A stretch of DNA of 21,461 nucleotides. Origin: a virus. The stretch spans positions 1 through 21,461 of IMG/VR virus record IMGVR_UViG_3300008113_001711; one strand, 5' to 3'. The notes beneath the pieces were generated by a model. The model did no database searches. It was given only the letters and a program-made list of their open reading frames with translations, and was not told the origin of the DNA. How positions within the stretch are numbered: the stretch's first letter is position 1; each line of letters begins with the position of its first letter. This document shows positions 1,513 to 13,093 of the stretch, in pieces. The position numbers were made by a program, and so were the translations under genes.

Positions 1513-1637
1513 ACGCCTAAATTGATTTTTCATTTTCAAAAAAAAAATTTAGGACAAAAAGGAGGCACTTTCTTTTTTAGCCTAAAAGAGGGGTAGGGGT
1601 ATCACCTGCATAAATTTTACTTTTTGTCAAGTCCTAT

Positions 1638-1719
1638 TGTGACACTTTTTAAACTGGCACATTGGGACTTGACATTTTTACCTTTTTATGGTAGGTGTGC
1701 CAATTTATAAACTGGCACA
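1638..1719. repeat. Dyad repeats, group 1 (2 copies)
   Basis: Two 24-bp dyads of the form TGTGMCA-N10-TGGCACA, at 1638-1661 and 1696-1719, 58 bases apart. They lie just 3' of the HigA-like gene at 1735-2010. A linker of the form ACTTGACATTTTTACC separates them. Confidence 0.85.
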
Positions 1720-1734
1720 TTTCCTATTGACATT

Positions 1735-2010
1735 TTACGCTTTTCTTGCTAGAGATTCTCGGTAAAGCTCTTCACTCAATATCCAAAAATGAGCATTAGG
1801 TAAACCGAAAGCATTCTCCAATTTGCAAGCAATACTATCAGTAATCTCGGTTTCACTTGCCAGCAGTCGAAAGGCTTCCTTTCTTGACATCTCCATCCGA
1901 TTAGCGAATATTCGTAAGGGTATTCCTCTGTCTCTCATGATGTAGTCAATGATTTCTCCAGGGGGCGAAAACCAATCTGATGTGTATTCGTTCTCAATTG
2001 TGTTAGTCAT
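1735..2010 (-). CDS. HigA-like orphan antitoxin, XRE family
   Basis: A 91-residue protein of the HigA/VapI addiction-module antidote type. From about residue 17 it reads PPGEIIDYIMRDRGI, then an XRE-type helix-turn-helix (IPLRIFANRMEMSRKEAFRLL) and the family's ITDSIACKLENAFGLP segment and a WIL/YRESLA tail. HigA proteins normally bind HigB RNase toxin and repress their own operon; no HigB-like gene lies beside it, so toxin neutralisation in cis is not supported. The start is fixed by AGGAG 11 bases upstream and by the promoter at 2047-2075. The final codons (ARKA, then TAA) and the sequence after them match the ends of the unrelated KTSC genes at 4110 and 5545. A second, altered copy is at 3267-3587. 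Confidence 0.85.
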   Translation of the reverse strand: MTNTIENEYTSDWFSPPGEIIDYIMRDRGIPLRIFANRMEMSRKEAFRLLASETEITDSIACKLENAFGLPNAHFWILSEELYRESLARKA

Positions 2011-2046
2011 AGATTGTGGAACTCCTTTGTTTTTCTTTATATTACT

Positions 2047-2075
2047 ATTATGTCATCTTTTTTTAGATTTGTCTA
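2047..2075 (-). promoter_or_regulatory. Array promoter for the HigA-like gene
   Basis: Reading leftwards: TAGACA (2075-2070), 17 bases, CATAAT (2052-2047), then a leader ending AAAGGAGTTCC. The same leader precedes most genes of the array. A dyad at 2083-2103, truncated on its right side, lies immediately upstream of the -35. Confidence 0.8.
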
Positions 2076-2082
2076 TGCCATA

Positions 2083-2217
2083 TGTGACACTTTCTAAACT
2101 GGCTTCCTATTGACATTTTTACTTTTTTGTGGTAGATGTGACACTTTATAAACTGGCACATTACCTATTGACATTTTTACTTTTTGTGGTAGATGTGCCA
2201 ATTACTAAACTGGCACA
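2083..2217. repeat. Dyad repeats, group 2 (3 copies)
   Basis: Dyads at 2083 (right half cut to TGGC), 2137-2160 and 2194-2217. The last two are 57 bases apart, with the linker TTACCTATTGACATTTTTAC between them. Confidence 0.85.
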
Positions 2218-2252
2218 TTTCCTATTGACTCTTTAGTAGTTTGCCGTCTTCA

Positions 2253-3008
2253 CTAAAAACGGTATTCACGATATAAGTTTTCAAATTGTGCTGAGTTTTG
2301 TGTGATTGTATATCTCAAGAAATCTCGACGCAGAAAGACAATCAATCCTAGATTAGATTGCTTAATTTCTGTTAATTTATTCGGTAAATGATCGATCAAA
2401 GCTTTCAAGGCTTTTCGTTGAAGGTTATCGTTATCATTGGCGACATTAGGAAAAGCATCTTCTAATCCATCAATTAAAAATATAATCTTCGAGTTTTTTT
2501 GTTTAAGGTATTCATGCAGTTTATTTAGTTGATAATTTTCCTGATTATACCCTAAAACTCTCGAAAATTCTTTGACCCAAAATTTTGCCCAATCTACCTC
2601 GTTCCAATCTTGATTAGATAGAGACTGCGTTATTCTGTCTTTAAAATCCGATATGGAAAATTGACAATTATGATTGAGTGTATTATTTACATTTAGCCGT
2701 GCTTGTTCAAGAATATTTTTGGACTTATCATTTAAATTTTGTGATTGGAGTAAAGGAAATATTAAACCCAGATTTTCTCCGGAATTTTCTTGATTTTTAG
2801 GATCAACTTTATTTAAAAAATTTCCCCAAGACTGTAGGCGAGATAGCTGAATATAATTAAAGGTTTTTCCCGCATCTTTAGCACCAATTGAGATAACTAC
2901 CGGTAGTTTATCTTGAAAATTACTAGCCATGTTTTTTAATAGCTGTTCATAACCGACAGCTAATAAGTCAGAGGATTTAACTTCAATCAGGAAGGTGTCG
3001 TAACTCAT
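2253..3008 (-). CDS. Chimeric P-loop ATPase fragment with KTSC-like N-terminus
   Basis: A 251-residue protein made of two parts. Residues 1-21 (MSYDTFLIEVKSSDLLAVGYE) closely follow the first residues of the KTSC proteins at 4110-4358 and 5545-5793, also at nucleotide level. From about residue 34 it is an NTPase: Walker A GAKDAGKT near 42-49, Walker B-like KIIFLIDGLED near 173-183, and NLGLIVFLRRDFLRYT near the end, typical of large AAA/STAND-like or Sll1717-type cyanobacterial ATPases. It stops soon after that motif, so the C-terminal part of such an ATPase is missing. The start has GGAGTTCC upstream and the best -10 of the array (TATAAT). Activity is doubtful. Assignment as an ATPase fragment is firm, the exact family is not. 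Confidence 0.75.
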   Translation of the reverse strand: MSYDTFLIEVKSSDLLAVGYEQLLKNMASNFQDKLPVVISIGAKDAGKTFNYIQLSRLQSWGNFLNKVDPKNQENSGENLGLIFPLLQSQNLNDKSKNILEQARLNVNNTLNHNCQFSISDFKDRITQSLSNQDWNEVDWAKFWVKEFSRVLGYNQENYQLNKLHEYLKQKNSKIIFLIDGLEDAFPNVANDNDNLQRKALKALIDHLPNKLTEIKQSNLGLIVFLRRDFLRYTITQNSAQFENLYREYRF

Positions 3009-3039
3009 GCGGAACTCCTTTGTTTTTCTTTATATTACT

Positions 3040-3068
3040 ATTATATCATCTTCTTTTAGAATTGTCTA
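3040..3068 (-). promoter_or_regulatory. Array promoter for the ATPase chimera
   Basis: TAGACA (3068-3063), 17 bases, consensus TATAAT (3045-3040). The dyad at 3076-3099 is 7 bases upstream of the -35. Confidence 0.8.
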
Positions 3069-3075
3069 TACCGTA

Positions 3076-3220
3076 TGTGACACTTTCTAAACTGGCATAA
3101 TTTGACTTGACATTTTGACCTTTTTGTGGTAGATGTGACTCTTTTTAAACTGGTTCATTACTTCCTGCATAAACTTTGCTTTTTGTTAAGTCCTATTGTG
3201 CCAATTAATAAACTGGCACA
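3076..3220. repeat. Dyad repeats, group 3 (3 copies)
   Basis: Dyads at 3076-3099 (ending TGGCATA), 3134-3157 (degenerate, ending TGGTTCA) and 3197-3220. The last linker is the alternative type containing CCTGCATAAACTTTGC and TTAAGTCC. Confidence 0.8.
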
Positions 3221-3266
3221 TCTGGACTTGACATTTACGCTTTTTTTGTTACTTTTAGCACTTGTA

Positions 3267-3587
3267 CTACTGTACAGTCGTATCTGTTTCGGATAGTACG
3301 ATTGAACTATTGTTCCCTAGATTCTGCATTACATTGTTTTGATTTGCTAGAGATTCTCGGTAAAGTCTTTCACGCTCTTTCCAAAAATGAGCAGTAGGTA
3401 AGCCGAAAGCATACTGCAATTTGCAAGCAATACGACCTGTAATCTCAGTTTCACTTGCCAGCAGTCGAAAGGCTTCCTTTCTTGACATTTCCATCCGATT
3501 AGCAAATATTCGTAAGGGTATTCCTCTCTCTTTCAAGATGTCGGAAATGGTTTCTCCAGGGGGTGTGTTCTCAATTGTGTTAGTCAT
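3267..3587 (-). CDS. HigA-like antitoxin with frameshifted KTSC tail
   Basis: 106 residues. Residues 1-80 are a second copy of the HigA-like protein at 1735-2010, with a short deletion after MTNTIEN and the same helix-turn-helix (IPLRIFANRMEMSRKEAFRLL). The last 25 or so residues differ completely. The DNA encoding them (about 3240-3345) matches the 3' end of the KTSC genes (compare GTAATGCAGAATCTA and TTCAATCGTACTAT), but is read in another frame because one base is missing near the junction. The gene is therefore a recombinant between two array members. The KTSC-derived match continues past the stop to the common AAAAGCGTAAATGTCAA end. No toxin gene is adjacent. DNA binding is plausible; the tail is probably not functional. 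Confidence 0.8.
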   Translation of the reverse strand: MTNTIENTPPGETISDILKERGIPLRIFANRMEMSRKEAFRLLASETEITGRIACKLQYAFGLPTAHFWKERERLYRESLANQNNVMQNLGNNSSIVLSETDTTVQ

Positions 3588-3623
3588 AGATTGTGGAACT
3601 CCTTTGTTTTTCTTTATATTACT

Positions 3624-3652
3624 ATTATGTCATCTTTTTTTAGATTTGTCTA
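3624..3652 (-). promoter_or_regulatory. Array promoter for the HigA/KTSC chimera
   Basis: TAGACA (3652-3647), 17 bases, CATAAT (3629-3624). The dyad at 3660-3683 lies 7 bases upstream. Both the -35 and the dyad sit inside the 3' end of the upstream ORF 3640-3825. Confidence 0.8.
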
Positions 3653-3825
3653 TGCCATATGTGACACTTTCTAAACTGGCATAAGTATTCTTTGCGTACC
3701 GTTGCAGGACTTTGATTTTCAACTTCACATTCTACTTTTTTCTGGTTAGGTATCGTAGCCATAAATAAAAGTCCGATAATTAATACTGAAAATAATACTG
3801 AAATTATTAGGTCGATAGTTTTCAT
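3640..3825 (-). CDS. Small membrane protein whose 3' end runs into the next dyad
   Basis: 61 residues. Residues 5-25 form one transmembrane helix (LIISVLFSVLIIGLLFMATI), followed by a short polar part. The last 13 residues (CQFRKCHIWHRQI) are simply translation of the dyad at 3660-3683 and of the -35 of the next gene, so the native 3' end has been lost and replaced by array sequence. The usual TAAATGTCAA stop junction is absent here. GGAGTTCC precedes the ATG at 3825 and the array promoter is at 3857-3885. Function is unknown; it may be a remnant. Confidence 0.6.
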   Translation of the reverse strand: MKTIDLIISVLFSVLIIGLLFMATIPNQKKVECEVENQSPATVRKEYLCQFRKCHIWHRQI

Positions 3826-3856
3826 ATGGAACTCCTGTGTTTTTCTCTATATAACT

Positions 3857-3885
3857 ATAATGTCATCTTTTTTTAGATTTGTCTA
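3857..3885 (-). promoter_or_regulatory. Array promoter for the small membrane protein
   Basis: TAGACA (3885-3880), 17 bases, CATTAT (3862-3857). The leader downstream is slightly diverged from the other copies. The dyad 3893-3916 is 7 bases upstream. Confidence 0.7.
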
Positions 3886-3892
3886 TACCGTA

Positions 3893-4095
3893 TGTGACAC
3901 TTTCTAAACTGGCATAATTGGACTTGACATTTTGACTTTTTTGTGGTAGCTATGACACTTTATGAACTGGTACATTTTCACCTGCATTGACTTTACTCTC
4001 TGTCAAGTCCTATTGTGACACTTTCTAAACTGGCATAATTGGACTTGACATTTTTACTTTTTTGTGGTAGCTGTGCCAATTAATAAACTGGCACA
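3893..4095. repeat. Dyad repeats, group 4 (4 copies)
   Basis: Dyads at 3893-3916, 3951-3974 (degenerate, TATGACA and TGGTACA), 4014-4037 and 4072-4095. Spacings are 58, 63 and 58. The 63-base step holds the alternative linker CACCTGCATTGACTTTACTC ... GTCAAGTCC. Confidence 0.85.
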
Positions 4096-4109
4096 TTACC
4101 TATTGACAT

Positions 4110-4358
4110 TTACGCTTTTCTTGCTACTTTTAACTCTTGTACTAGAGTACAATCGTATTTGTTACGAATAGTACGATTGAACTCTCGTCCTATAGATTCT
4201 GCATTACAGAGATTTTGATACACCTGAATTGGTACTCCTGTATATTTGTACTCACTTCCAGATTTAAATACTATTCTTAATGTTTCGCTAATTGGCTCAT
4301 AACCTACAAACATTAAGACAGAGGATTCAACTTCAAACAGGGGGATGTCGTAAATCAT
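4110..4358 (-). CDS. KTSC-domain protein, copy 1
   Basis: 82 residues, almost entirely one KTSC domain (named after the C-terminus of some lysyl-tRNA synthetases, proposed to bind nucleic acid). Recognisable elements are ESSVLMFVGYEP, LRIVFKSGSEYKYTGVP, VYQNLCNAESIGREFN and IRNKYDC. It is nearly identical to 5545-5793, differing at only a handful of residues. The start ATG at 4358 has GGAGTTCC in front and the array promoter at 4390-4418. The last codons ARKA and the TAAATGTCAA that follows are shared with the HigA-like gene at 1735. A function in this context is unknown. Confidence 0.85.
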   Translation of the reverse strand: MIYDIPLFEVESSVLMFVGYEPISETLRIVFKSGSEYKYTGVPIQVYQNLCNAESIGREFNRTIRNKYDCTLVQELKVARKA

Positions 4359-4389
4359 TTGGAACTCCTGTGTTTTTCTTTATATTACT

Positions 4390-4418
4390 ATTATGTCATC
4401 TTTTTTTAGAAATGTCTA
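4390..4418 (-). promoter_or_regulatory. Array promoter for KTSC copy 1
   Basis: TAGACA (4418-4413), 17 bases, CATAAT (4395-4390). The dyad 4426-4449 lies 7 bases upstream of the -35. Confidence 0.8.
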
Positions 4419-4425
4419 TACCCTA

Positions 4426-4742
4426 TGTGACACTTTCTAAACTGGCACATTACCTATTGACATTTTTACTTTTTGTGGTAGATGTGCCAATTACTAAACT
4501 GGCACATTACCTATTGACATTTTGACCTTTTTATGATAGCTGTGACACTTTCTAAACTGGCACATTTCCTATTGACAGTTTGACTTTTTTGTTGTAGCTG
4601 TGACACTTTATGAACTGGCACATTTCCACCTGCATTGACTTTACTCTTTGTTAAGTCCTATTGTGCCAATTTATAAACTGGCACATTACCTATTGACATT
4701 TTTACCTTTTGTGATAGATGTGCCAATTAATAAACTGGCACA
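4426..4742. repeat. Dyad repeats, group 5 (6 copies)
   Basis: Dyads start at 4426, 4483, 4541, 4599, 4662 and 4719, giving spacings of 57, 58, 58, 63 and 57. Left halves alternate between TGTGACA and TGTGCCA; right halves are TGGCACA. The 63-base step again holds the CACCTGCATTGAC linker. No gene lies within. Confidence 0.9.
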
Positions 4743-4756
4743 TTACCTATAGACAT

Positions 4757-4900
4757 TTAGCTAAACAATAGTTTTTTTAACCATTTAGCTTTTTTTTTCC
4801 AATTATTTGTGGGCATAAAATTATAGATCACTACTATTTCTTTACCCCGTTTAGCCACAATATGTTTAGCAGATAATTTGATTCTGAGTGGGTTAATCAT
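4757..4900 (-). CDS. Small basic protein of 47 residues
   Basis: An ORF of 47 codons starting MINPLRIKLSAKHIVAKRGK and ending KKAKWLKKLLFS, rich in Lys. I chose it because it occupies exactly the position of a gene in the array: GGAGTTTC precedes the ATG (one base from the usual GGAGTTCC), the array promoter is at 4932-4960, and the stop is the shared TAAATGTC junction. The start shares ATGAT with the KTSC genes. No family is recognised. It is inserted between the first KTSC copy and the first WFRILGQDW copy, a position empty in the second copy of that block. Confidence 0.6.
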   Translation of the reverse strand: MINPLRIKLSAKHIVAKRGKEIVVIYNFMPTNNWKKKAKWLKKLLFS

Positions 4901-4931
4901 TTGAAACTCCTGTGTTTTTCTTTATATTACT

Positions 4932-4960
4932 ATTATGCCATCTTTTTTTAGAAACGTCTA
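4932..4960 (-). promoter_or_regulatory. Array promoter for the 47-residue protein
   Basis: TAGACG (4960-4955), 17 bases, CATAAT (4937-4932), with the dyad 4968-4991 immediately upstream. Confidence 0.75.
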
Positions 4961-4967
4961 TACCCTT

Positions 4968-5107
4968 TGTGACACTTTCTAAACTGGCATAATTTGACTT
5001 GACATTTTTACTTTTTTGTGGTAGATGTGACAATTAATAAACTGGCACAATCGGTATTGACATTTTTACTTTTTTGTGGTAGATGTGCCAATTTATAAAC
5101 TGGCACA
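4968..5107. repeat. Dyad repeats, group 6 (3 copies)
   Basis: Dyads at 4968-4991, 5026-5049 (TGTGACA with the AATTAATAAAC spacer) and 5084-5107, at 58-base spacing. Confidence 0.85.
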
Positions 5108-5126
5108 TCTGGACTTGACATTTAGC

Positions 5127-5471
5127 TTAGATAAGTCTTAGTATCTCTTGATACTTAGCATAGTTTTTATCGTCCTCCCAATTTACACTTAAATAGTGTC
5201 CATCACTTAACTCAATCTGACAATCATAATCCGTTACTGAACTAAAATCAACACTCCAAAAGCCATGAGGTTCATAAATACCTATAGCCCTCAACCATTG
5301 ATTTATCACCTCTCTCGCTTCTTTTTCGGATTCTCCTAATCCTAATCCTAAGTTTTCTAATTCCCCTACGTCATACTTGCCTAACTCTATCTCCATTGTA
5401 CGAGTCTTACCATTCCAATCTTGCCCTAATATTCTGAACCAAGTTAGTTCACCGTTTACCGTGTTAGTCAT
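5127..5471 (-). CDS. Unknown WFRILGQDW-family protein, copy 1
   Basis: 114 residues of unrecognised function. Conserved segments are TWFRILGQDWNGKT, YDVGELENLGLGLG, EAREVINQWL, SVTDYDCQIELSDG and WEDDKNYAKYQEI; the protein is acidic. Near-identical to 6254-6598 and related to 14623-15015 and more distantly 15220-15549, so this is a four-member family in the window. It begins ATGACTAACAC, the same first bases as the unrelated HigA-like genes. GGAGTTCC precedes the ATG, but the rest of the usual leader and its promoter are missing: the ribosome binding site joins directly to dyad-linker sequence. It is probably co-transcribed from the KTSC gene at 5545-5793. Confidence 0.8.
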   Translation of the reverse strand: MTNTVNGELTWFRILGQDWNGKTRTMEIELGKYDVGELENLGLGLGESEKEAREVINQWLRAIGIYEPHGFWSVDFSSVTDYDCQIELSDGHYLSVNWEDDKNYAKYQEILRLI

Positions 5472-5506
5472 TTGGAACTCCTGACATTTTTACTTTTTGT
5501 GGTAGA

Positions 5507-5530
5507 TGTGCCAATTTATAAACTGGCACA
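5507..5530. repeat. Single dyad between KTSC copy 2 and WFRILGQDW copy 1
   Basis: One TGTGCCA-N10-TGGCACA dyad. It sits where a complete promoter-leader would be expected for the gene starting at 5471. Confidence 0.85.
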
Positions 5531-5544
5531 TTTCCTATTGACAT

Positions 5545-5793
5545 TTACGCTTTTCTTGCTACTTTTAACTCTTGTACTAGAGTACAATCGTATTTGTTAC
5601 GAATAGTACGATTGAACTCCCGTCCTATAGATTCTGCATTACAGAGATTTAGATACACCTGATATGGTACTCCTGTATATTTGTACTCACTTCCAGATTT
5701 AAATATTATTCTTAATGTTTCGCTAATTGGCTCATAACCTACAAACATTAAGACTGAGGATTCAACTTCAAACACGGGAATGTCGTAAATCAT
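5545..5793 (-). CDS. KTSC-domain protein, copy 2
   Basis: 82 residues, a duplicate of 4110-4358 with a few substitutions (for example PVF for PLF, IIF for IVF, VPYQVYLNL for VPIQVYQNL). Same KTSC hallmarks (ESSVLMFVGYE, FKSGSEYKYTGVP, IGREFNRTIRNKYDC) and same ARKA end. GGAGTTCC precedes the ATG at 5793, with the promoter at 5825-5853. It lies upstream of 5127-5471, with only one dyad and no promoter between, so the two probably form an operon. Both coding frames are intact, so both copies look maintained. Confidence 0.85.
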   Translation of the reverse strand: MIYDIPVFEVESSVLMFVGYEPISETLRIIFKSGSEYKYTGVPYQVYLNLCNAESIGREFNRTIRNKYDCTLVQELKVARKA

Positions 5794-5824
5794 TTGGAAC
5801 TCCTTTGTTTTTCTTTATATTACT

Positions 5825-5853
5825 ATTATGTCATCTTTTTTTAGATTTGTCTA
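5825..5853 (-). promoter_or_regulatory. Array promoter for KTSC copy 2
   Basis: TAGACA (5853-5848), 17 bases, CATAAT (5830-5825). The dyad 5861-5884 is 7 bases upstream. Confidence 0.8.
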
Positions 5854-5860
5854 TGCCATA

Positions 5861-6234
5861 TGTGACACTTTATAAACTGGCACATTACCTATTGACATTT
5901 TGACTTTTTTGTTGTAGCTGTGACACTTTATAAACTGGCACATTTCCTATTGACATTTTTACTTTTTGTTGTAGCTGTGACACTTTATGAACTGGCACAT
6001 TTTCACCTGCATTGACTTTATTCTCTGTCAAGTCCTATGTGACACTTTCTAAACTGGCACATTTCCTATTGACATTTTTACTTTTTTGTTGTAGCTGTGC
6101 CAATTACTAAACTGGCACATTTCCTATTGACATTCTGACCTTTTTATGGTAGATGTGACACTTTCTGAACTGGCACATTACCTATTGACATTTTTACTTT
6201 TTGTGGTAGATGTGCCAATTATTAAACTGGCACA
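5861..6234. repeat. Dyad repeats, group 7 (7 copies)
   Basis: Dyads start at 5861, 5919, 5976, 6038, 6096, 6154 and 6211, at spacings of 58, 57, 62, 58, 58 and 57. The 62-base step holds the CACCTGCATTGAC linker. The order of linker types parallels group 5, as expected if both derive from one duplicated block. Confidence 0.9.
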
Positions 6235-6253
6235 TCTGGACTTGACATTTAGC

Positions 6254-6598
6254 TTAGATAAGTCTTAGTATCTCTTGATACTTAGCATAGTTTTTATCGT
6301 CTTCCCAATCTACACTTAAATAGTGTCCATCACTTAACTCAATCTGACAATCATAATCCGTTACTGAACTAAAATCAACACTCCAAAAGCTATGAGGTTC
6401 ATAAATACCTATAGCCATCAACCATTGATTTATCACCTCTCTCGCTTCTTTTTCGGATTTTCCTAATCCTAATCCTAAGTTTTCTAATTCTCCTACGTCA
6501 TACTTGCCTAACTCTATCTCCATTGTACGAGTCTTACCATTCCAATCTTGCCCTAATATTCTGAACCATGTTAGTTCACCGTTTACCGTGTTAGTCAT
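6254..6598 (-). CDS. Unknown WFRILGQDW-family protein, copy 2
   Basis: 114 residues, differing from 5127-5471 at only a few positions (for example GKSEK for GESEK, LMAIG for LRAIG, EPHSF for EPHGF, SVDWE for SVNWE). Unlike that copy it has the complete leader: GGAGTTCC before the ATG at 6598 and TAGACA-N17-CATAAT at 6630-6658. The stop lies in the shared CTAAATGTCAAG junction. Together with 5545-5793 and the intervening dyads it repeats the KTSC-dyads-WFRILGQDW block at 4110-5471. Function unknown. Confidence 0.8.
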   Translation of the reverse strand: MTNTVNGELTWFRILGQDWNGKTRTMEIELGKYDVGELENLGLGLGKSEKEAREVINQWLMAIGIYEPHSFWSVDFSSVTDYDCQIELSDGHYLSVDWEDDKNYAKYQEILRLI

Positions 6599-6629
6599 GT
6601 GGAACTCCTGTGTTTTTCTTTATATTACT

Positions 6630-6658
6630 ATTATGTCATCTTTTTTTAGAAATGTCTA
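6630..6658 (-). promoter_or_regulatory. Array promoter for WFRILGQDW copy 2
   Basis: TAGACA (6658-6653), 17 bases, CATAAT (6635-6630). The dyad 6666-6689 is 7 bases upstream. Confidence 0.8.
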
Positions 6659-6665
6659 TACCCTA

Positions 6666-6747
6666 TGTGACACTTTCTAAACTGGCATAATTTTACTTGA
6701 CATTTTGACTTTTTTGTGATAGATGTGACAATTAATAAACTGGCATA
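6666..6747. repeat. Dyad repeats, group 8 (2 copies)
   Basis: Dyads at 6666-6689 and 6724-6747, both ending TGGCATA. A more degenerate third (GTGATACCTCTTAAACTAGCAC) follows near 6781. This is the right end of the dense array. Confidence 0.8.
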
Positions 6748-6816
6748 ATTGGACTTGATATTTTGACCTTTTTTGCAGGTGTGATACCTCTTAAACTAGC
6801 ACTTTTGGAATAGGCT

Positions 6817-7633: not shown

Positions 7634-7657
7634 TTGTGACAGTTTTTTAATTGTCAC
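7634..7657. promoter_or_regulatory. Perfect dyad, TGTGACA / TGTCACA
   Basis: A perfect inverted repeat, extendable to GATTGTGACA and TGTCACAATC, with a 10-base T-rich spacer. It has the geometry of the array dyads but with compensatory base changes in both arms. It lies 15 bases upstream of the -35 at 7613-7618, so it fits an operator or activator site. Confidence 0.7.
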
Positions 7658-7673
7658 AATCCCTCTGGCTCTC

Positions 7674-7835
7674 TTATTTTTCCTGAATTTGTACCCTTGC
7701 ACTATCTCTTAATGTACCACCATTTTTGAAATGGTTATACTGCTCGATTACTCCCCAGAGAAACATAAGAATCAGCAGTTCTATCAATGCTATTCTATGT
7801 AAGCCGTTAAACTGTGAAAACAATTTTTTTCGCAT
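7674..7835 (-). CDS. Small single-helix membrane protein, 53 residues
   Basis: An ATG at 7835 opens 53 codons ending at TAA (7676-7674). The protein starts MRKKLFSQFNGLHR, has one transmembrane helix (IALIELLILMFLWGVIEQY, about 15-33) and a polar tail (ARVQIQEK). A positively charged N-terminus before the helix suggests N-in topology. The Shine-Dalgarno sequence is weak (AAAGA). It lies between the two RLSY paralogues. No family recognised. Confidence 0.55.
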   Translation of the reverse strand: MRKKLFSQFNGLHRIALIELLILMFLWGVIEQYNHFKNGGTLRDSARVQIQEK

Positions 7836-7890
7836 TCTTTAAATGGTACAAACATGATAATTTACCCTTGCACTCGATTAGACACAAATT

Positions 7891-7920
7891 AAAAGGTTGA
7901 GCTATTGCTCTCAACCTTTT
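7891..7920. terminator. Terminator hairpin after 7927-8274
   Basis: AAAAGGTTGAG and CTCAACCTTTT form an 11-bp stem around an 8-base loop. It lies 7 bases beyond the stop of the minus-strand gene. The T-run is longer on the plus strand, so it may act in both directions. Confidence 0.7.
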
Positions 7921-7926
7921 TTTTTG

Positions 7927-8274
7927 TTAGCTTTCGTTTTTAATTAATTTTAACCCCTCTAGCTTTAAGTTGATTTCTCCAATTTTAACCTCTAAGTTTT
8001 CAGACTGGTCACTTTTTAACTCTAAATGGTAGTTCATGTCCGCAGAATACCAGTAACGAAAATCACCTAATGAACCATTAGACTCTATACCTAACTCTGC
8101 ACAATATTCACAAATTGCCTCTAAATTTTTACTCGTTAACTCTAACCATCCAAAATTATCATAGTCTTCTATTTCTGATAGGGATACCTGAGACTTAGTT
8201 TTTAAGTCAATAACCCCAGCATCAAACAAAATAAAGAGGTCGTCGATATTGTGATAGCTTAATCTTACAAACAT
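7927..8274 (-). CDS. Unknown RLSY/FDAGVIDL-family protein, copy 2
   Basis: 115 residues, paralogue of 7160-7555. Shared blocks are FVRLSY, LFDAGVIDL, SLSEIEDYDNFGWLELT, ICEYCAELGIESN and WYSADMNYHLELKSD. The CxxC pair (CEYC) is conserved in both, though a single pair is not enough to claim zinc binding. It has its own strong promoter (8308-8336) with the same spacer sequence as that of the paralogue, so gene and promoter were duplicated together. A terminator follows at 7891-7920. Confidence 0.75.
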   Translation of the reverse strand: MFVRLSYHNIDDLFILFDAGVIDLKTKSQVSLSEIEDYDNFGWLELTSKNLEAICEYCAELGIESNGSLGDFRYWYSADMNYHLELKSDQSENLEVKIGEINLKLEGLKLIKNES

Positions 8275-8307
8275 AATTGGTGACTCCTATTTTTTGCTTA
8301 TGTGTCT

Positions 8308-8336
8308 ATTATGCCACTGTTCTATTGAATTGTCAA
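8308..8336 (-). promoter_or_regulatory. Promoter for 7927-8274
   Basis: TTGACA (8336-8331), 17 bases, CATAAT (8313-8308). A degenerate dyad (GGACAGTTTATAAACTGGCACA) lies just upstream, around 8357-8378. Confidence 0.85.
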
Positions 8337-8396
8337 GGGGTTTTTTGGTGTTTTAGGACAGTTTATAAACTGGCACATAGCCCCTTGACTTTTTTC

Positions 8397-8810
8397 TCAA
8401 CTCTGTTGAATTTTTTCTATCAATTGTTGTTTTGTCATACTTCCATAACCTTTAATTTTTAATTCTCTGGCCATCACTTTTAATTGTCTGATTGATACCA
8501 CTTCTGATTCTACCAGTTCCTGTTTAATCGCCACTTGAGATATTGACTCTATTTTAGACACTAAATTTAAGTCTTCCTCTAGATTTTCTAAATTAGGAAT
8601 TTGGGTATCAATTTGTGTATCGGTCGTGTCCATATTATGCAAGTTTTGAGGATAAAATATTCGGCTATCCACCCCCTCTAAAATGCCCCAAAATGCGTGC
8701 AAAACACCCGATATTATCATCATTACGGTAAAGAATACAACGGTAGCGTTAAATGCCCAATATGCCCCAATTGCGATATAATCTAAAATCATTGTGTCTA
8801 GTGTAGTCAT
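8397..8810 (-). CDS. Membrane-anchored protein with SAP/Rho-N-like C-terminus
   Basis: 137 residues from the ATG at 8810. A longer in-frame start at 8861 is rejected because it would lie within the promoter (8843-8871), while GGAG sits 8 bases before 8810. Residues 11-43 are strongly hydrophobic (AIGAYWAFNATVVFFTVMMI onward), one long or two short transmembrane helices. Residues 50-100 are an acidic linker. Residues 105-135 (VSIRQLKVMARELKIKGYGS, then MTKQQLIEKIQ) have the helix-extended-helix pattern of SAP or Rho N-terminal domains, which bind nucleic acid. This suggests a protein that tethers DNA or RNA to the membrane; that is inference. Confidence 0.65.
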   Translation of the reverse strand: MTTLDTMILDYIAIGAYWAFNATVVFFTVMMIISGVLHAFWGILEGVDSRIFYPQNLHNMDTTDTQIDTQIPNLENLEEDLNLVSKIESISQVAIKQELVESEVVSIRQLKVMARELKIKGYGSMTKQQLIEKIQQS

Positions 8811-8842
8811 GGTTGGTAACTCCGGTTTTCGTTTATGTTTAT

Positions 8843-8871
8843 AGTATGTCATCTTTTTCAAAAAATGTCAA
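8843..8871 (-). promoter_or_regulatory. Promoter for 8397-8810
   Basis: TTGACA (8871-8866), 17 bases, CATACT (8848-8843). Its position decides the start codon of the gene downstream. The upstream stretch to 9050 holds two diverged copies of GTCATAAGTTTATCTAATAT and no gene. Confidence 0.75.
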
Positions 8872-9054
8872 TACTTTTAGTTTTGTCTTTTTTTATCTGT
8901 TTTAGGTATTGTCATAAGTTTATCTAATATTATTTTTGCTTATAATTTTGTCCTATCGTCATAAGATTACCTAATATAACTTTTGATTATCCTTGTAATA
9001 AGTTTTTATTATGTGCTAACCTCATGCACACACCTGCAATTGTTATTTTAGATT

Positions 9055-9080
9055 AAAGCAGTGATTCTTACCACTGCTTT
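9055..9080. terminator. Terminator hairpin after 9096-9524
   Basis: AAAGCAGTG and CACTGCTTT pair perfectly around an 8-base loop, 16 bases beyond the stop codon. A T-run is present on the plus-strand side only, so efficiency in the leftward direction is uncertain. Confidence 0.6.
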
Positions 9081-9095
9081 AGCTTTTTTGGTCTG

Positions 9096-9524
9096 TTAAT
9101 CTAGTTCAGATTCTAGTTCAGATTCTATTTCTGATGAATCTTTGACATCCCAGCCCTTTTTAAAAACTACATACTCTTTCATTAATGCCTCACTAAAAAT
9201 ATCATGTAAGTAGTCCTTAACGTTGTCCTCATTTTTACCAGTTATTCGGATGTTTATTTCGTCCTCAAAACTAGGTGTTATTACTACTTGATGCTCTGTC
9301 CATTGTCTTATGATTGGATGCCAATACGCTGTGTCTATCACTATTCTTTTGTGAGTTGATTTTAGGGATATAATGCAACTCACAGTTGATAAGTTATGAC
9401 GTTGTAATCCGATTACATTACCATTAGGCAATAACTCTTTCAACAAAGTTAACTCTTTCTCTATCACATTTAGCGACTTGTTTTTTTGACTTAAAACTCT
9501 TGCAATCTTTTGGTACAACTTCAT
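9096..9524 (-). CDS. Unknown protein, 142 residues
   Basis: No family is recognised. The N-terminal third is Lys-rich and helical (MKLYQKIARVLSQKNKSLNV), followed by a KELTLLKELLPNG segment and a middle part predicted as strands (STVSCIISLKSTHKRIVIDT, HQVVITPSF, INIRITGK). The C-terminus is acidic with the repeat SELESELD. The start at 9524 is supported by a strong promoter at 9558-9586 and the end by the hairpin at 9055-9080, so it is a one-gene unit like its neighbours. Confidence 0.7.
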   Translation of the reverse strand: MKLYQKIARVLSQKNKSLNVIEKELTLLKELLPNGNVIGLQRHNLSTVSCIISLKSTHKRIVIDTAYWHPIIRQWTEHQVVITPSFEDEINIRITGKNEDNVKDYLHDIFSEALMKEYVVFKKGWDVKDSSEIESELESELD

Positions 9525-9557
9525 AATTGGGTACTCTTGTTTTTTGTTTATGTCTCT

Positions 9558-9586
9558 ATTATGTAACTTATCTCTTGTAATGTCAA
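9558..9586 (-). promoter_or_regulatory. Promoter for 9096-9524
   Basis: TTGACA (9586-9581), 17 bases, CATAAT (9563-9558). A degenerate dyad with GGGACAGTTTATAAACTGGC lies upstream around 9605-9627. Confidence 0.85.
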
Positions 9587-9701
9587 GGGGTTTTTGGTGT
9601 TTTGGGACAGTTTATAAACTGGCACATATCCGCTTGACTTTTTGGCTTTTTAGTGCATATACTACCATGATTTTTTTATTTTTAAAAATTTTTTATTGTG
9701 T

Positions 9702-9707
9702 TATAAT
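9702..9707 (+). promoter_or_regulatory. Candidate -10 for the di-iron protein gene
   Basis: TATAAT with a TG-containing upstream context (ATTGTGTTATAATG) and an A/T tract before it; no good -35 is seen. The resulting leader is about 70 bases and contains TTTCCTT ... AAGGAAA, which can pair. The AAGGA at 9753 is too far from the start at 9784 to act as a normal ribosome binding site. Confidence 0.5.
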
Positions 9708-9783
9708 GCAGGGGTAATCTTTCCTTCAAGGGGTTCACTCAATCCTTTAATACAAGGAAAAATTTTTTACTGGTAAAAACTTT

Positions 9784-10554
9784 ATGTCTGATCAATTAAT
9801 TTTTCAACGTCTATTAAACGCTAAACGAGATTGGGCAGTTATGCCTATTCAAAACGGTCACTGTGTTCGGGGTGCGGAAAAAACTATCCAAAAAGCATTA
9901 GAGGCTCGACACTTAGAGTTACCCGTTGGTCAATGGATTAAAGAGTGTGCTAGTCGAGAGAGAAAATGGTTATCTGATTACGGTATTTTATTATTAGCCT
10001 CTAATTTTAAAGACGAAAAAAAACATGACTCTCAGTTAAATTATGCCTATTCAAATATCTCTTTAGCTAATCTTACTGATAAACTACAAATTGAGTCTGA
10101 ATCTCGTTCTTTAGTCTCTAAATGGTTAAAAATGGGAGAGAAATATCACCCCGTTTTAGTTACTTGGGTCGCCGAACAATCTATCTTTTTTCCGGTCTTA
10201 ACTTTATACCGCCGTTTAGGTGGTACTCAGTTAGCTATGGTTTCCGCAGAGATTAGCAGGGACGAGACAATTCACGCTAGAACTAACGGCACTATCGCTA
10301 AAATGTTAGGACTTTCTATTCCCCCTGACTTGGATGACCTTAGACAGGAAACCATCGAGTGGCTTGTTTCAGACCTTGATGATTCTGGGATTGAAGGTAA
10401 ATACGGTCAATCTAAAAATTATATTGACCAGTCTTTTCAATTACTTCATCAAGGTTCTTACGCTAAGTTTAAAGATACCTCCTTCGCTGTTTTGCCCGGT
10501 TTCTTTGAAACACATCGTAGTCATTTACCTAAATATGGTAAGGTAGCTAACTAA
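9784..10554 (+). CDS. Ferritin-like di-iron protein (R2/oxygenase-like)
   Basis: 256 residues. Two ExxH motifs mark a ferritin-like carboxylate di-iron fold: DEKKH (E78, H81) and DETIH (E161, H164). A Glu in a hydrophobic helix lies between them (WVAEQS, E131), and candidate first-helix Glu residues lie at 45 and 54. The order E, ExxH, E, ExxH and the 30-residue step between the last two match ribonucleotide reductase R2 and related proteins. The protein is shorter than R2 (usually above 320 residues), and no radical tyrosine can be assigned by eye, so its reaction is unknown. It is the only plus-strand gene among the minus-strand genes from 1.7 to 17.1 kb, with its own -10 and a shared terminator at 10569-10601. 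This suggests independent acquisition or a role apart from its neighbours. Confidence 0.65.
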   Translation: MSDQLIFQRLLNAKRDWAVMPIQNGHCVRGAEKTIQKALEARHLELPVGQWIKECASRERKWLSDYGILLLASNFKDEKKHDSQLNYAYSNISLANLTDKLQIESESRSLVSKWLKMGEKYHPVLVTWVAEQSIFFPVLTLYRRLGGTQLAMVSAEISRDETIHARTNGTIAKMLGLSIPPDLDDLRQETIEWLVSDLDDSGIEGKYGQSKNYIDQSFQLLHQGSYAKFKDTSFAVLPGFFETHRSHLPKYGKVAN

Positions 10555-10568
10555 CAATTTACATCTAA

Positions 10569-10601
10569 AAATAGGGTAACTTTTTTTAGGCTACCCTATT
10601 T
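10569..10601. terminator. Bidirectional terminator between convergent genes
   Basis: AAATAGGGTA and TACCCTATTT form a 10-bp stem around a 13-base T-rich loop. It lies between the convergent ends at 10554 and 10607. Confidence 0.75.
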
Positions 10602-10606
10602 CTTTG

Positions 10607-11038
10607 TCAAGGTGTTTTTCTTACCTCGAACATCTCATTTATTGCATCAAATATTTGAGGTAATACTATCTGATTGATTCTGTCAACCTCTGCTTTATTT
10701 TTGATTACCTCTGCTAACGGGTTTACCGTTACATGAGAACCACCTCTACCTAATATTTCCGCTACTTCCTTTAATCCATAAGCTGTTTTCGCTAGTTCGT
10801 AAAACTTCCATAGGTTATCCCCTCTCAATTTTACGTTTAAAGTGTAGTCTCTTTCTAGAGCCTCTTGCCAGTTGATATTCCCATAGTTGCTCAAGTGGTA
10901 ATGTTCCCCTTTTGCCCTTAAATACCCGAAAGACCAGTACCAATCACAATCCCATGTCGGGGCGGCTATATATATTAGTTTTCCGTCTTTTTTTCGTTTT
11001 CCCAGATAGTGTATTTCTGTCCATTTTGTGCTATACAT
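10607..11038 (-). CDS. Conserved phage/plasmid-type hypothetical protein
   Basis: 143 residues. The N-terminal half is rich in aromatic residues (TKWTEIHYLGKRKKDGKLIY, PTWDCDWYWSFGYL, GEHYHLSNYG), a pattern I associate with small hypothetical proteins carried by phages and plasmids; I cannot name a function. The C-terminal half is helical (DNLWKFYELAKTAYGLKEVA onward). The start has GAGGAAA upstream and a consensus promoter at 11071-11099. The next gene to the right (11314-11895) shares a KWTE motif near its N-terminus (QYLKKWTEAPNYLG), so the two may be distantly related. Confidence 0.65.
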   Translation of the reverse strand: MYSTKWTEIHYLGKRKKDGKLIYIAAPTWDCDWYWSFGYLRAKGEHYHLSNYGNINWQEALERDYTLNVKLRGDNLWKFYELAKTAYGLKEVAEILGRGGSHVTVNPLAEVIKNKAEVDRINQIVLPQIFDAINEMFEVRKTP

Positions 11039-11070
11039 TGTCTTTTTCCTCTTTGTTTGCTTATGTACCC

Positions 11071-11099
11071 ATTATGCTATCTTTTCAGTCCTGTGTCAA
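11071..11099 (-). promoter_or_regulatory. Promoter for 10607-11038
   Basis: TTGACA (11099-11094), 17 bases, CATAAT (11076-11071). The sequence beyond it (11110-11225) resembles 8935-9050 upstream of the SAP-like gene, including TTGCTTAT and a CACATACCTGCA segment. No dyad is seen here. Confidence 0.8.
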
Positions 11100-11277
11100 T
11101 ACTTTTCGTATTTTATTTTCTTATCCCTATCCGCCCTTGCTATAACTTTACCTTATATAATTTTTTCTTATCTTTGTTATTAGTTTTGCTTATATACAAA
11201 CCTGATACACATACCTGCATTATTCATTCTTTATTACACAACTCCTACATATTTCTGCCTTGTTTGGTATAGACAAG

Positions 11278-11306
11278 AAAAGGTGAGTACATTAACTCAC
11301 CCTTTT
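11278..11306. terminator. Terminator hairpin after 11314-11895
   Basis: AAAAGGTGAG pairs with CTCACCCTTTT around an 8-base loop, 8 bases beyond the stop codon at 11314. Confidence 0.65.
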
Positions 11307-11313
11307 GTTTATG

Positions 11314-11895
11314 TTAGTTTTCCTCAGTTCGGCTTAAAATGTCCTCTAGTCTTTTCAGTAGCAATTCCTTCTCAGACTCGCTAAAATTAAAACTAATACT
11401 AAAATCGTCTAGATTCGCAAAATCGTTAGCAAAATCCTCAATTAACTCACCTAACTCATCACTGGTTAATACACACTTATTATCCAGACTCGTTACTCGT
11501 TCATCATCTTTTAACTCAGGTATTGCTATTAACAATTCCTTAAAACACTCAATATATCCCCAATTTGACCAATACTCATACCACTGCTCATATTCTAAGT
11601 CAGACAAGTCTTGTTCATCTAGTATTGAGTAGTCTTCCAAGCTTTTCTTTTTCTCATCTATTGCTTCTAATAGCAAAGAATCTTTATGAATCATTAAAGC
11701 TTTAAATTCCATGCAACCCCCAAAACTAAACTCTTCTAAGTCTGGAAATAATCGATGCCATACTCGATAATTACTCATATCTACTGAATCACTCTGCTCT
11801 GATTCAGCCGCTACTACATAGAAGTCCGTTAAATCCATCCCTAAATAATTTGGTGCTTCTGTCCATTTTTTAAGATATTGCGGTTGATAGTTCAT
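11314..11895 (-). CDS. Acidic unknown protein with KWTE N-terminal motif
   Basis: 193 residues, strongly acidic overall (EDYSILDEQDLSDLEYEQWY; ELGELIEDFANDFANLDD). It begins MNYQPQYLKKWTEAPNYLGM; the KWTE...YLG element also begins 10607-11038. The last third is predicted helical and ends LLLKRLEDILSRTEEN. No family is recognised. Small very acidic proteins on mobile DNA sometimes act as DNA mimics, but nothing here is specific enough to claim that. It has GGGAG 6 bases before the ATG and a consensus promoter with a perfect dyad upstream. Confidence 0.65.
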   Translation of the reverse strand: MNYQPQYLKKWTEAPNYLGMDLTDFYVVAAESEQSDSVDMSNYRVWHRLFPDLEEFSFGGCMEFKALMIHKDSLLLEAIDEKKKSLEDYSILDEQDLSDLEYEQWYEYWSNWGYIECFKELLIAIPELKDDERVTSLDNKCVLTSDELGELIEDFANDFANLDDFSISFNFSESEKELLLKRLEDILSRTEEN

Positions 11896-11926
11896 GATGT
11901 ACTCCCGTTTTTTTGCTTATGTACCT

Positions 11927-11955
11927 ATTATGTCATTTATCTCTTGGATTGTCAA
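11927..11955 (-). promoter_or_regulatory. Promoter for 11314-11895
   Basis: TTGACA (11955-11950), 17 bases, CATAAT (11932-11927), 17 bases downstream of the dyad at 11973-11996. Confidence 0.85.
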
Positions 11956-11972
11956 GGGGTTTTTTGGTAGGT

Positions 11973-11996
11973 TGTGACAATTTATAAACTGTCACA
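11973..11996. promoter_or_regulatory. Perfect dyad, TGTGACA / TGTCACA
   Basis: A second perfect copy with both arms changed relative to TGTGCCA/TGGCACA. Its spacer (ATTTATAAAC) is that of the dense array 5 kb away, so it is clearly the same element. Confidence 0.75.
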
Positions 11997-12023
11997 TATA
12001 CTCTTGACTTTTTGGCTTTTTTT

Positions 12024-12037
12024 ACTGATAACTGATA
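12024..12037. repeat. Heptamer repeat ACTGATA, 2 units
   Basis: Two units just 3' of the gene at 12046-12237; same heptamer as 12264-12305. Confidence 0.75.
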
Positions 12038-12045
12038 ACTCCTAC

Positions 12046-12237
12046 TTAATCTTCTATATCCCAACTATTTTCGAGTAATCCCAGATTATCGCTAACTATC
12101 TCTATCAATTGGTTCCCGTCATTTTCTATGCTGATTTGAGTGTATAAATCGTCAAACATTGACGACGCTTCTTTTCTGTTTTTTGCCTTAACCGTGACCT
12201 CAATTGTGAGGTTTAAACTCCCTGTATATTCCTTCAT
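12046..12237 (-). CDS. Small unknown protein, 63 residues
   Basis: Begins MKEYTGSLNLTIEVTVKAKN and ends ENSWDIED; a predicted strand-helix-strand layout (RKEASSMFDDLYTQ in the middle). AGGAG lies 7 bases before the ATG. No promoter is visible before it and the interval to 12308 is filled by heptamer repeats, so it is probably the last gene of an operon that begins at 14069. No family recognised. Confidence 0.65.
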   Translation of the reverse strand: MKEYTGSLNLTIEVTVKAKNRKEASSMFDDLYTQISIENDGNQLIEIVSDNLGLLENSWDIED

Positions 12238-12263
12238 TTTTTTACTCCTATTATGTGTTAATT

Positions 12264-12305
12264 ACTGATAACTGATAACTGATAACTGATAACTGATAAC
12301 TGATT
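12264..12305. repeat. Heptamer tandem repeat ACTGATA, 5 units plus one variant
   Basis: Five perfect ACTGATA units followed by ACTGATT, between 12046-12237 and 12308-12631. Shorter copies lie at 12024, near 12661, near 12914 and at 13094, always between genes of the same operon, and once near 19938. This resembles the short tandemly repeated heptanucleotides described in cyanobacteria. Confidence 0.85.
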
Positions 12306-12307
12306 AA

Positions 12308-12631
12308 TTAAAAGTCCTTAATAATTACACCACCCTCAAATTGAATTACGGTCGTCCGATCCTCCAAATATTTAAGTGCCTCCGCTTCTATCTCATCCTC
12401 ATCCTCATCATCGGGGGGAATAAAATCATAATGTTCCGCCGCCTCTAGGACGCTATCATATTCTGAAAAATCACACCGCAAAGCGACTCTATCAAATTTG
12501 ATAGGCTTATCACTATCCTCTAAGTTTTCTAGGTACTCAATTAAAGCTGTAGCACCCTCCCATGACCAACCAGCACTATGATCATATTTCAGTAATTTAA
12601 TAGCTTCATCGGTGCTTAATTTTTGGTACAT
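12308..12631 (-). CDS. Small acidic protein of a phage/plasmid-borne family
   Basis: 107 residues. Motifs WSWEGATALIEYLENLE, IKFDRVALRCDFSEYDS, an Asp/Glu tract (PPDDEDEDEIEAEALKYLED) and TTVIQFEGGVIIKDF match my recollection of a widespread acidic family found in phages and plasmids and usually annotated only as hypothetical. AGGAG precedes the ATG by 7 bases. Operon position is between heptamer-repeat spacers. The strong negative charge would fit DNA mimicry or an anti-defence role; that is speculation. Confidence 0.7.
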   Translation of the reverse strand: MYQKLSTDEAIKLLKYDHSAGWSWEGATALIEYLENLEDSDKPIKFDRVALRCDFSEYDSVLEAAEHYDFIPPDDEDEDEIEAEALKYLEDRTTVIQFEGGVIIKDF

Positions 12632-12683
12632 TTTTCTACTCCTAAATGGTTAATGTTTACCGATAACTGATAACTGGAACTGA

Positions 12684-12887
12684 TTAAAAATAAGGCTCGA
12701 TCAAAACTTCTAAATGTTTCTCGTAGCTAGGGAAAACTTCATAGTTAGGATTGCCATTTTCCCATAATTCCTTAAGGGTATCGACTTGTTTTAAGAAGAT
12801 TTCAGCATCCTCACCCTGTAGTAAAATGTCGGTTTCCCCATTGGTCAATTTCACTGCATAGCCTAGATCAAAAAAGGTAAAGTTCAT
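12684..12887 (-). CDS. Small unknown protein, 67 residues
   Basis: Begins MNFTFFDLGYAVKLTNGETD. It has the layout strand, NGE turn, then LQGEDAEIFLKQVDTLKELW helix, and ends LIEPYF. The F-x-LxNG-x-LQGEDAxxFL pattern is seen in small mobile-element proteins of unknown role. AGGAG lies 11 bases before the ATG. Same operon as its neighbours. Confidence 0.65.
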   Translation of the reverse strand: MNFTFFDLGYAVKLTNGETDILLQGEDAEIFLKQVDTLKELWENGNPNYEVFPSYEKHLEVLIEPYF

Positions 12888-12935
12888 CTTTTTGGTACTC
12901 CTAAATAATGGCTACTGATAACTGATACCTGGTCA

Positions 12936-13037: not shown

Positions 13038-13093
13038 ATAGCTTAAACTGATAAGCGGGTAGATATTTTTTCTCTCTTAATGGGTGTTTTTTA

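Follow-up and report, generated by a model that had tools for sequence, protein, structure and literature searches.

The DNA analysed here (the window), 21,461 bases long, is a virus record from IMG/VR. By its sequence, it is part of the genome of a relative of Microcystis phage Mic1, which has been described as a long-tailed siphophage (PMC7156551, PMC11237433); the window and Mic1 share about 80 to 91% DNA identity along long stretches. The window carries an array of nine minus-strand genes, and the gaps between these genes are filled with a 24-bp near-palindrome (the 24-mer), TGTGMCANTTNNTRAACTGGCAYA, found at 1638..6747 with a spacing of mostly 57 to 63 bp within each intergenic gap. The array genes are the following:

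1735..2010, minus strand, HigA1: XRE/HigA-like, 91 amino acids; last ~17 nucleotides (1735-1751) KTSC derived
2253..3008, minus strand, "ATPase": chimera of 251 amino acids with a KTSC-derived start, a Microcystis-derived body, and a short tail (about 2230-2267)
3267..3587, minus strand, HigA2: HigA-like, 106 amino acids; 3' end runs into KTSC-derived DNA
3640..3825, minus strand, MKTI: gene for a small membrane-like protein
4110..4358, minus strand, KTSC1: 82 amino acids; KTSC domain (Pfam PF13619, 3.2e-19)
4757..4900, minus strand, MINPL: 47 amino acids
5127..5471, minus strand, WFRIL1: 114 amino acids; promoter absent in the window assembly, intact in relative G002
5545..5793, minus strand, KTSC2: 82 amino acids
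6254..6598, minus strand, WFRIL2: 114 amino acids

HigA1 matches TIGR02607 at 7.4e-07, under the family cut-off, and family searches with the MINPL protein gave no match. The records searched include at least five close relatives of the window (G001, G002, G005, G009, and G010), and comparable arrays occur in three more distant relatives, G004, G003 (96.8 kb), and Mic1. Of these records, Mic1 is complete, and the window and most of its relatives are fragmentary. Genes were accepted in the array comparison only with a ribosome-binding site, and some may be missed.

An earlier reading of this DNA (the original prediction) had proposed a leader common to the array genes, and this was confirmed: a promoter (TAGACA-like, N17, CATAAT-like) precedes eight of the nine genes, and the motif GGAGTT[CT]C all nine. 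WFRIL1 (5127-5471) has lost its promoter in the window, where only CAGGAGTTCC remains of the leader. The TAGACA-N17-CATAAT elements are located as follows:

2047..2075, minus strand, HigA1 promoter
3040-3068, minus strand, ATPase promoter
3624-3652, minus strand, HigA2 promoter
3857-3885, minus strand, MKTI promoter
4390-4418, minus strand, KTSC1 promoter
4932-4960, minus strand, MINPL promoter
5825-5853, minus strand, KTSC2 promoter
6630-6658, minus strand, WFRIL2 promoter

Between unrelated families within one genome, leaders had a mean identity of 0.904 (91 pairs; shuffled floor, 0.59) and bodies a mean identity of 0.677 (floor, 0.66). The comparison used 29 leaders; left aside were WFRIL1, the seven genes that lie in the window but not in the array, and the G003 MKTIb and Mic1 MKTIa cassettes, whose promoters are of another type. 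Leaders are far more alike than bodies, the opposite of what the prediction had named as evidence against itself. Its statement that the bodies differ completely did not hold, as KTSC, WFRIL, and HigA are each present as two paralogues and the ATPase gene begins as a KTSC gene. A constant 3' junction was found in part: exact TAAATGTCAA follows five of the nine genes and variants follow two, but ATPase and MKTI lack it, and the stop codon it supplies is used by four genes (HigA1, KTSC1, MINPL, and KTSC2) rather than by most. The HigA-like and WFRIL genes do share ATGACTAACAC at their starts, but both families probably possess it natively. Outside its array, Mic1 has a WFRIL gene that begins with the same start, and the HigA homologue of MaMV-DC reads LANTVEN where the window reads MTNTIEN; on these two grounds, a borrowing of the first HigA codons from WFRIL was rejected. 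Likewise, the ARKA codons are common to HigA-like and KTSC genes, but their source is a KTSC tail fused onto HigA. Three features described below go beyond the original prediction, namely the palindrome units of 58 bp, the hairpin at the 3' end, and the similar promoters at early genes outside the array.

Exact copies of the 24-mer number 29 in the window, all on the plus strand, with none on the minus strand, none with the reversed pattern, and none in 100 shuffles. It often recurs as a tandem unit about every 58 bp (repeat families D1 to D5). Two forms can be told apart by position. The promoter-proximal form, which on the gene strand reads TATGCCAGTTTAGAAAGTGTCACA for 19 of the 32 genes, mostly ends 6 to 7 bp upstream of the −35 box, and its pairing is poor (commonest value, 7 of 10 pairs; 32 sites); the site tallied for WFRIL1 is in fact the 3' hairpin of KTSC2. 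In six strand scans of four phages, limited to 17-nucleotide (nt) spacers, the element lay 6 to 7 bp from the −35 box in 35 of 56 cases, 16 to 17 bp in 17, and 1 bp in 4, so that the main distance classes are about one helical turn apart. The promoter-proximal sites in the array are:

at 2083, minus strand, HigA1 (damaged)
3076..3099, minus strand, ATPase (TATGCCAGTTTAGAAAGTGTCACA)
3660-3683, minus strand, HigA2
3893-3916, minus strand, MKTI
4426-4449, minus strand, KTSC1
4968-4991, minus strand, MINPL
5861-5884, minus strand, KTSC2
6666-6689, minus strand, WFRIL2

In the 3' form, TGTGCCAGTT-N4-AATTGGCACA, all 10 pairs are present for 30 of the 31 genes from four phages, the lone exception being G003 MKTIb, and the site lies 13 to 46 nt after the stop codon; window MKTI, with no 3' site within the 70 nt examined, is outside the 31. 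Base changes from G-T to A-T and from C-G to T-G leave the pairing intact, and RNA folding of five 3' ends gave z scores of −2.7 to −4.9. The hairpin may end or protect transcripts; cyanobacteria are not known to have Rho. A scan for intrinsic terminators found none at the gene ends. The 3' hairpins are:

1696..1719, minus strand, HigA1 (10/10 pairs)
2194-2217, minus strand, ATPase
3197-3220, minus strand, HigA2
4072-4095, minus strand, KTSC1
4719-4742, minus strand, MINPL
5084-5107, minus strand, WFRIL1
5507-5530, minus strand, KTSC2
6211-6234, minus strand, WFRIL2

With up to 3 mismatches allowed, there are 40 24-mer sites in the window and 50 in Mic1, compared to 0 to 2 per shuffle (10 block shuffles). 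All 50 Mic1 sites fall within 56,813 to 72,102 of 92,627 bp, that is, in the early-gene block. Outside the array, every site (eight in the window and eight in Mic1) directly precedes a promoter of the CATAAT type, identified by eye; the −35 box is weak at window position 15620 and at its Mic1 counterpart. In the window, these sites are:

7635, 8354, 9603, 11973, 14129, 14491, 15086, and 15620 (7635..15643), each followed by the CATAAT-type promoter of a minus-strand gene

According to the Mic1 expression study (PMC11237433), the early phase comprises gp49 to gp73 minus gp61 and gp67, and the fastest RNA-seq cluster, gp49 plus gp69 to gp73, peaks at 0.5 h. By position, gp69 to gp73 are array genes of Mic1. 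A search for the 24-mer pattern in 12 Microcystis-genus genomes gave not one exact match and a single site with 1 mismatch; this near-absence indicates that it belongs to the phage, and the upstream 24-mer is likely the operator of a phage regulator. A tally of records with the 24-mer counted nine, with arrays in five virus records and Mic1, and two array records were added later. Two extra pattern scans yielded no further array record and one lone match (L110); lone matches in many unrelated IMG/VR contigs, among the matches listed, were taken as background. A search of PLSDB with window positions 1600 to 6800 gave no match, and a plasmid origin was rejected; no element reached the gathering score in an Rfam search.

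The flanks of the array are homologous across phages, and the gene sets, gene number, and order between them differ. On the gene strand, with the upstream gene first, the window reads WFRIL2, KTSC2, WFRIL1, MINPL, KTSC1, MKTI, HigA2, ATPase, HigA1. Mic1 reads MINPL, KTSC, MINPL, MKTI, KTSC, MINPL, RNQ, continuing with MKTI, KTSC, MKTI, a gp72 family gene, MKTI, RNQ. G003 has MINPL, MKTI, KTSC, MINPL, MINPL, a gp72 family gene, MKTI, MKTI, RNQ, and G004 has MINPL, KTSC, RNQ before its contig ends. Mic1 and G003 are 98.6 to 99.3% identical on one side of the array and 85 to 89% (longer blocks) or 79 to 80% (shorter blocks) on the other, which indicates that phages have crossed over within the array or at its border. 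Mic1 MKTIa looks like a fusion, its front part matching one G003 cassette and its rear part the adjacent one, and Mic1 is 297 bp shorter here than G003; identity to G003 is 100% along 1,063 bp on one side and 97 to 98% on the other. The unit that moves usually includes its own promoter and 3' hairpin. Leaders of different genes are closer within than between phages (difference, 0.021; 0 of 2,000 label shuffles), an effect expected of homologous recombination between cassettes. As an observation apart, several open reading frames of the Mic1 array are without public annotation, e.g., the second RNQ copy (L001:18675-18917, equal to Mic1 68674-68916) and the MINPL genes. The gp72 family also has two paralogous genes in the window at 7160-7555 and 7927-8274, of which the latter matches 6L2W, a cyanophage protein of solved structure (7.4e-60); the arrays of Mic1 and of G003 each include a copy of the family.

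Three array genes contain foreign bodies (ATPase, HigA1, and HigA2), and all three sit in the remains of KTSC cassettes, with joint overlaps of 2 to 6 nt. The ATPase gene and its source have these parts:

2943..3095, minus strand: KTSC-like leader and first ~22 codons of ATPase, 90% to the KTSC gene of G004
2268..2944, minus strand: host-derived ATPase segment, 677 nt, 90 to 91% identical to a Microcystis chromosomal gene
L142:1103-4338: Microcystis two-gene locus encoding 166 amino acids and a 912-amino-acid KGGVGR ATPase, resembling PADLOC candidate PDC-M28

The ATPase body matches the interior of a long Microcystis gene over 673 to 677 nt and overlaps the KTSC part by at most 2 nt. Donor-gene matches came from a metagenome-assembled genome of M. 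aeruginosa and from M. viridis FACHB-1342, with the captured part corresponding to about residues 466 to 689 of the 912-residue M. viridis protein. The segment is present at ≥76% in 5 of the 12 Microcystis-genus genomes, and a ~46-nt match alone was found in two others. In the host protein, residues 129 to 323 form a KGGVGR-type ATPase domain (NF047398, 7.3e-47), and the protein matches the PADLOC candidate defence family PDC-M28B (1.7e-15, best stretch at residues 125 to 181); the gene preceding it matches PDC-M28A weakly (0.01). Both the NF047398 and PDC-M28B matches fall outside the captured part, and the defence role of the host gene is therefore a candidate label. The phage protein itself had no match in PADLOC and matched the P-loop ATPase family NF047389 below the cut-off (3.8e-07). 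Its reading frame has been kept, and so has a P-loop. The ratio of nonsynonymous to synonymous substitution rates (dN/dS) of the captured segment, which reflects constraint over the joint history and says nothing on function in the phage, was 0.40 to 0.43 against four near hosts and 0.30 against a distant host; host copies gave 0.22 to 0.23 (near versus distant) and 0.30 to 1.80 among near hosts (few changes; one pair undefined).

HigA1 and HigA2 are homologous to an XRE gene of MaMV phages (79% and 85% DNA identity). HigA2 departs from this homology at ATCAAA and continues in KTSC DNA in another frame (KTSC homology at 3197-3343), HigA1 departs at TAGCAA and ends on the final KTSC codons, and both joints show a 6-nt microhomology. 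One might speculate that the array is a gene nursery for counter-defence in which fragments of host defence genes, captured in immediate-early cassettes downstream of a phage promoter and start codon, act as decoys or dominant-negatives against their source system, the ATPase P-loop fragment, from a protein with a PDC-M28B-like end, poisoning or titrating the host complex; we regard this as rather unlikely.

Taken together, we think it probable that the region is an early-gene cassette array of a Mic1-like Microcystis siphophage, a counterpart of the promoter early stem-loops (PeSLs), that is reshuffled by homologous recombination and by microhomology capture. Each cassette would be its own transcription unit, made up of the upstream 24-bp element, a sigma70-type promoter, a leader with a ribosome-binding site, a small gene, and a 3' hairpin built from the other form of the 24-mer. 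Upon infection, the cassettes would be read at once by the host polymerase, and a phage-encoded regulator would bind the upstream element. Because neighbouring cassettes share long repeat stretches, homologous recombination, within and between phages, could duplicate, delete, reorder, and fuse them. Separately, cassettes already in place would take in foreign coding DNA through illegitimate joining where a few bases match, and the captured body would be expressed from the recipient promoter and, for ATPase, also from the recipient start codon. The anatomy, the different positions of the two 24-mer forms, their restriction to the early block, the differences in gene content, the chimeras, and the relatives of the inserts are seen directly, and early expression in Mic1 comes from the published study; the recombination pathways, the directions in which the events ran, the regulator, and the role of the hairpin are inferred.

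Differences between near-identical strains are harder to interpret. A block of KTSC2 and WFRIL2 is present in the window and absent from the five close relatives:

5482..6750: KTSC2+WFRIL2 block

The block joins its surroundings seamlessly on the right; on the left, the junction at 5482/5483 is suspect, and G002 is the one relative among the five in which the joint lacking the block is clean. MKTI ends at 51 codons in G001, G002, G005, and G010, and in the window and G009, as assembled, it reads into the HigA2 promoter region, with a suspect junction near 3680/3681. At the WFRIL1 gap, the window, G001, G005, and G009 have a common right end near CAGGAGTTCC and four different left ends, and G010 has another deletion. 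At the HigA2 gap, the same four again share the right end and differ on the left, with G002 intact and a 16-bp unmerged overlap in G010; at the HigA1 gap, the four covering contigs differ on the left only. Judged by eye, the fixed right ends are at or near the first base that distinguishes the repeat copies. We had considered these ragged junctions as rapid natural deletion, and this was downgraded in view of the fixed side at repeat-copy boundaries and the G010 overlap. The joints at the three gaps are likely assembly artefacts and are not used as evidence. The original prediction had asked whether close relatives keep a fixed gene order; order differs among the more distant phages, and among near-identical contigs, the joints that differ are suspect.

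Several observations weigh against the proposed cassette array. The ragged left and mostly fixed right ends at the three gaps point to short-read scaffolding errors, and joints of this type do not establish fine-scale turnover between nearly identical strains. Ns occur in the Mic1 array, and the Mic1 genome is a Velvet assembly in which PCR and Sanger sequencing were used for joining (PMC7156551). Searches of Mic1 and G003 for RecT and ERF annealases found none. The 3' hairpin is without a T tract, and the terminator scan gave 1 site compared to 2.1 in shuffles. Finally, gp49 is immediate-early in Mic1 with no 24-mer near it, and gp67 lies inside the 24-mer region and is not early, so that 24-mer site and expression class do not correspond one to one.

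These points raise the question of whether the array is a static set of ordinary repeats, its apparent turnover being mostly short-read misassembly. This would fit the ragged-left, fixed-right joints at WFRIL1, HigA1, and HigA2, which occur in contigs that otherwise differ little or not at all, as well as the unmerged overlap in G010. We nevertheless find it quite improbable, since gene families, order, and number differ between phages that are about 80 to 90% identical, and since identical products recur across contigs: the ATPase protein in the window, G001, and G005, the ATPase tail in these three plus G009 and G010, and the HigA2 protein in the window, G001, G002, and G005. In addition, the order of the Mic1 contigs was set by PCR and Sanger sequencing (PMC7156551). 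A stronger competitor, which we judge possible if somewhat doubtful, holds that the repeats are purely regulatory, i.e., clusters of phage-repressor operators such as SPBRE for MrpR in SPbeta, and that recombination is incidental. Sites at promoters throughout the early block and their helical phasing agree with this, Mic1 encodes a prophage antirepressor and ParA/ParB, and its E1 transcripts are reported to be lowest by 4 h (PMC11237433). It leaves unexplained the tandem units away from promoters, the perfect 3' hairpins, and the chimeras; for the upstream form, it is compatible with the cassette array rather than opposed to it.

A further alternative is site-specific recombination, integron-like or dif-module-like, with the near-palindrome as the crossover site and the bodies exchanged as cassettes; the original prediction had spoken of an integron-like exchange of bodies between fixed flanks, with no attC sites or integrase in view. 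Palindromic sites do flank the array genes in one orientation, and gene content is variable. However, searches for a tyrosine integrase (Phage_integrase) in seven records (the window and six relatives, leaving out G002 and G010) gave nothing above the cut-off and one sub-threshold match, in G003, with four stops; no resolvase was found in Mic1 or G003; and a simple scan of window positions 1600 to 6800 detected 0 attC-like core pairs, compared to a mean of 1.1 in shuffles. The 24-mer is also found at promoters of early genes outside the array, its two forms are under different constraints, and the capture joints lie inside KTSC genes at short microhomologies, with no single site. We consider this mechanism highly improbable, and the integron-like view with fixed flanks is not supported. 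What stands of the exchange between fixed flanks is that gene content varies between homologous flanks and that outside bodies (a host gene and HigA homologues of other phages) are found behind array leaders.

Among known systems, integrons likewise hold rows of small unrelated genes between constant edges, but in the array no integrase or attC was found and eight of nine genes have their own promoter; integron cassettes are promoterless and read from one Pc. In dif-module (Xer) cassettes, 28-bp XerC/XerD sites alternate in orientation, whereas all 29 exact copies of the 24-mer share one orientation. PeSLs were reportedly described in T4-type myoviruses by Arbiol (2010) and Comeau (2014). Like PeSLs, the array combines an early promoter and a stem-loop in intergenic units, present in many copies among variable small genes in a region of shuffled gene order. 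PeSLs of T4-type phages (PMC4503421, PMC3950731) have been proposed as mediators of gene exchange. The array differs in belonging to a siphophage that is not T4-like, in a stem-loop without a T tract, in an added palindrome upstream of the promoter and 58-bp tandem units, and in a captured host fragment fused in frame. It thus works like a PeSL without being filed as one, with the same working principle in a different phage group. The haloarchaeal myovirus HGTV-1 has promoter/inverted-repeat motifs and differs as an archaeal virus; the account of it in PMC3950731, in its available text, gives no turnover or chimera data. SPBRE operators, which are bound by MrpR in SPbeta (PMC10516654), are likewise a repeated element at several promoters of one phage, as is the 24-mer at the promoters of one regulon; there the binder is known, and gene shuffling is not described in the available part of that paper.

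In Mic1, the leader motif has been reported as a promoter repeat (10 copies, 66,031 to 71,646) and is the same element as that of the array; a second promoter motif (8 copies) is also the same element as here (PMC7156551). The available text of that paper treats the repeats solely as multiple promoters, with no cassettes, hairpin, turnover, or capture, and turnover and capture are not described for Mic1 in the available portions of PMC11237433 or PMC7156551. The Mic1 promoter repeats were thus known before, and the cassette anatomy, the turnover, and the host-gene capture appear to be new. They bear on how phages acquire small, fast-evolving early genes facing host defences, because the sequence displays the steps: expression units that stay constant, cassettes that duplicate and fuse, and an intermediate in which part of a host gene follows a phage start codon in frame. 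With its two forms, the 24-mer can serve as a marker in searches for such arrays, and it provides an early regulon that can be tested in a phage group relevant to blooms, one member of which is in culture.

Further features of the window were noted. A second unit type of about 62 bp, with a TTGACA-N-TGCAGG-like motif and positions read by eye, resembles the second repeated promoter motif of Mic1 and occurs at:

1605-1660
3140-3190
3985-4015
4625-4660
6000-6035

Two large inverted repeats, at 680-793/1353-1466 (arms 559 nt apart) and 17429-17598/18509-18678 (arms 910 nt apart), resemble each other, have arms that are 89 to 92% complementary, and have similar sequence in Mic1; they are possible replication or terminal structures. 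Between small genes at 12023-13131, a 7-nt repeat, ACTGATA, is clustered, and this repeat unit has also been reported in Mic1 and in a Microcystis genome (PMC7156551).

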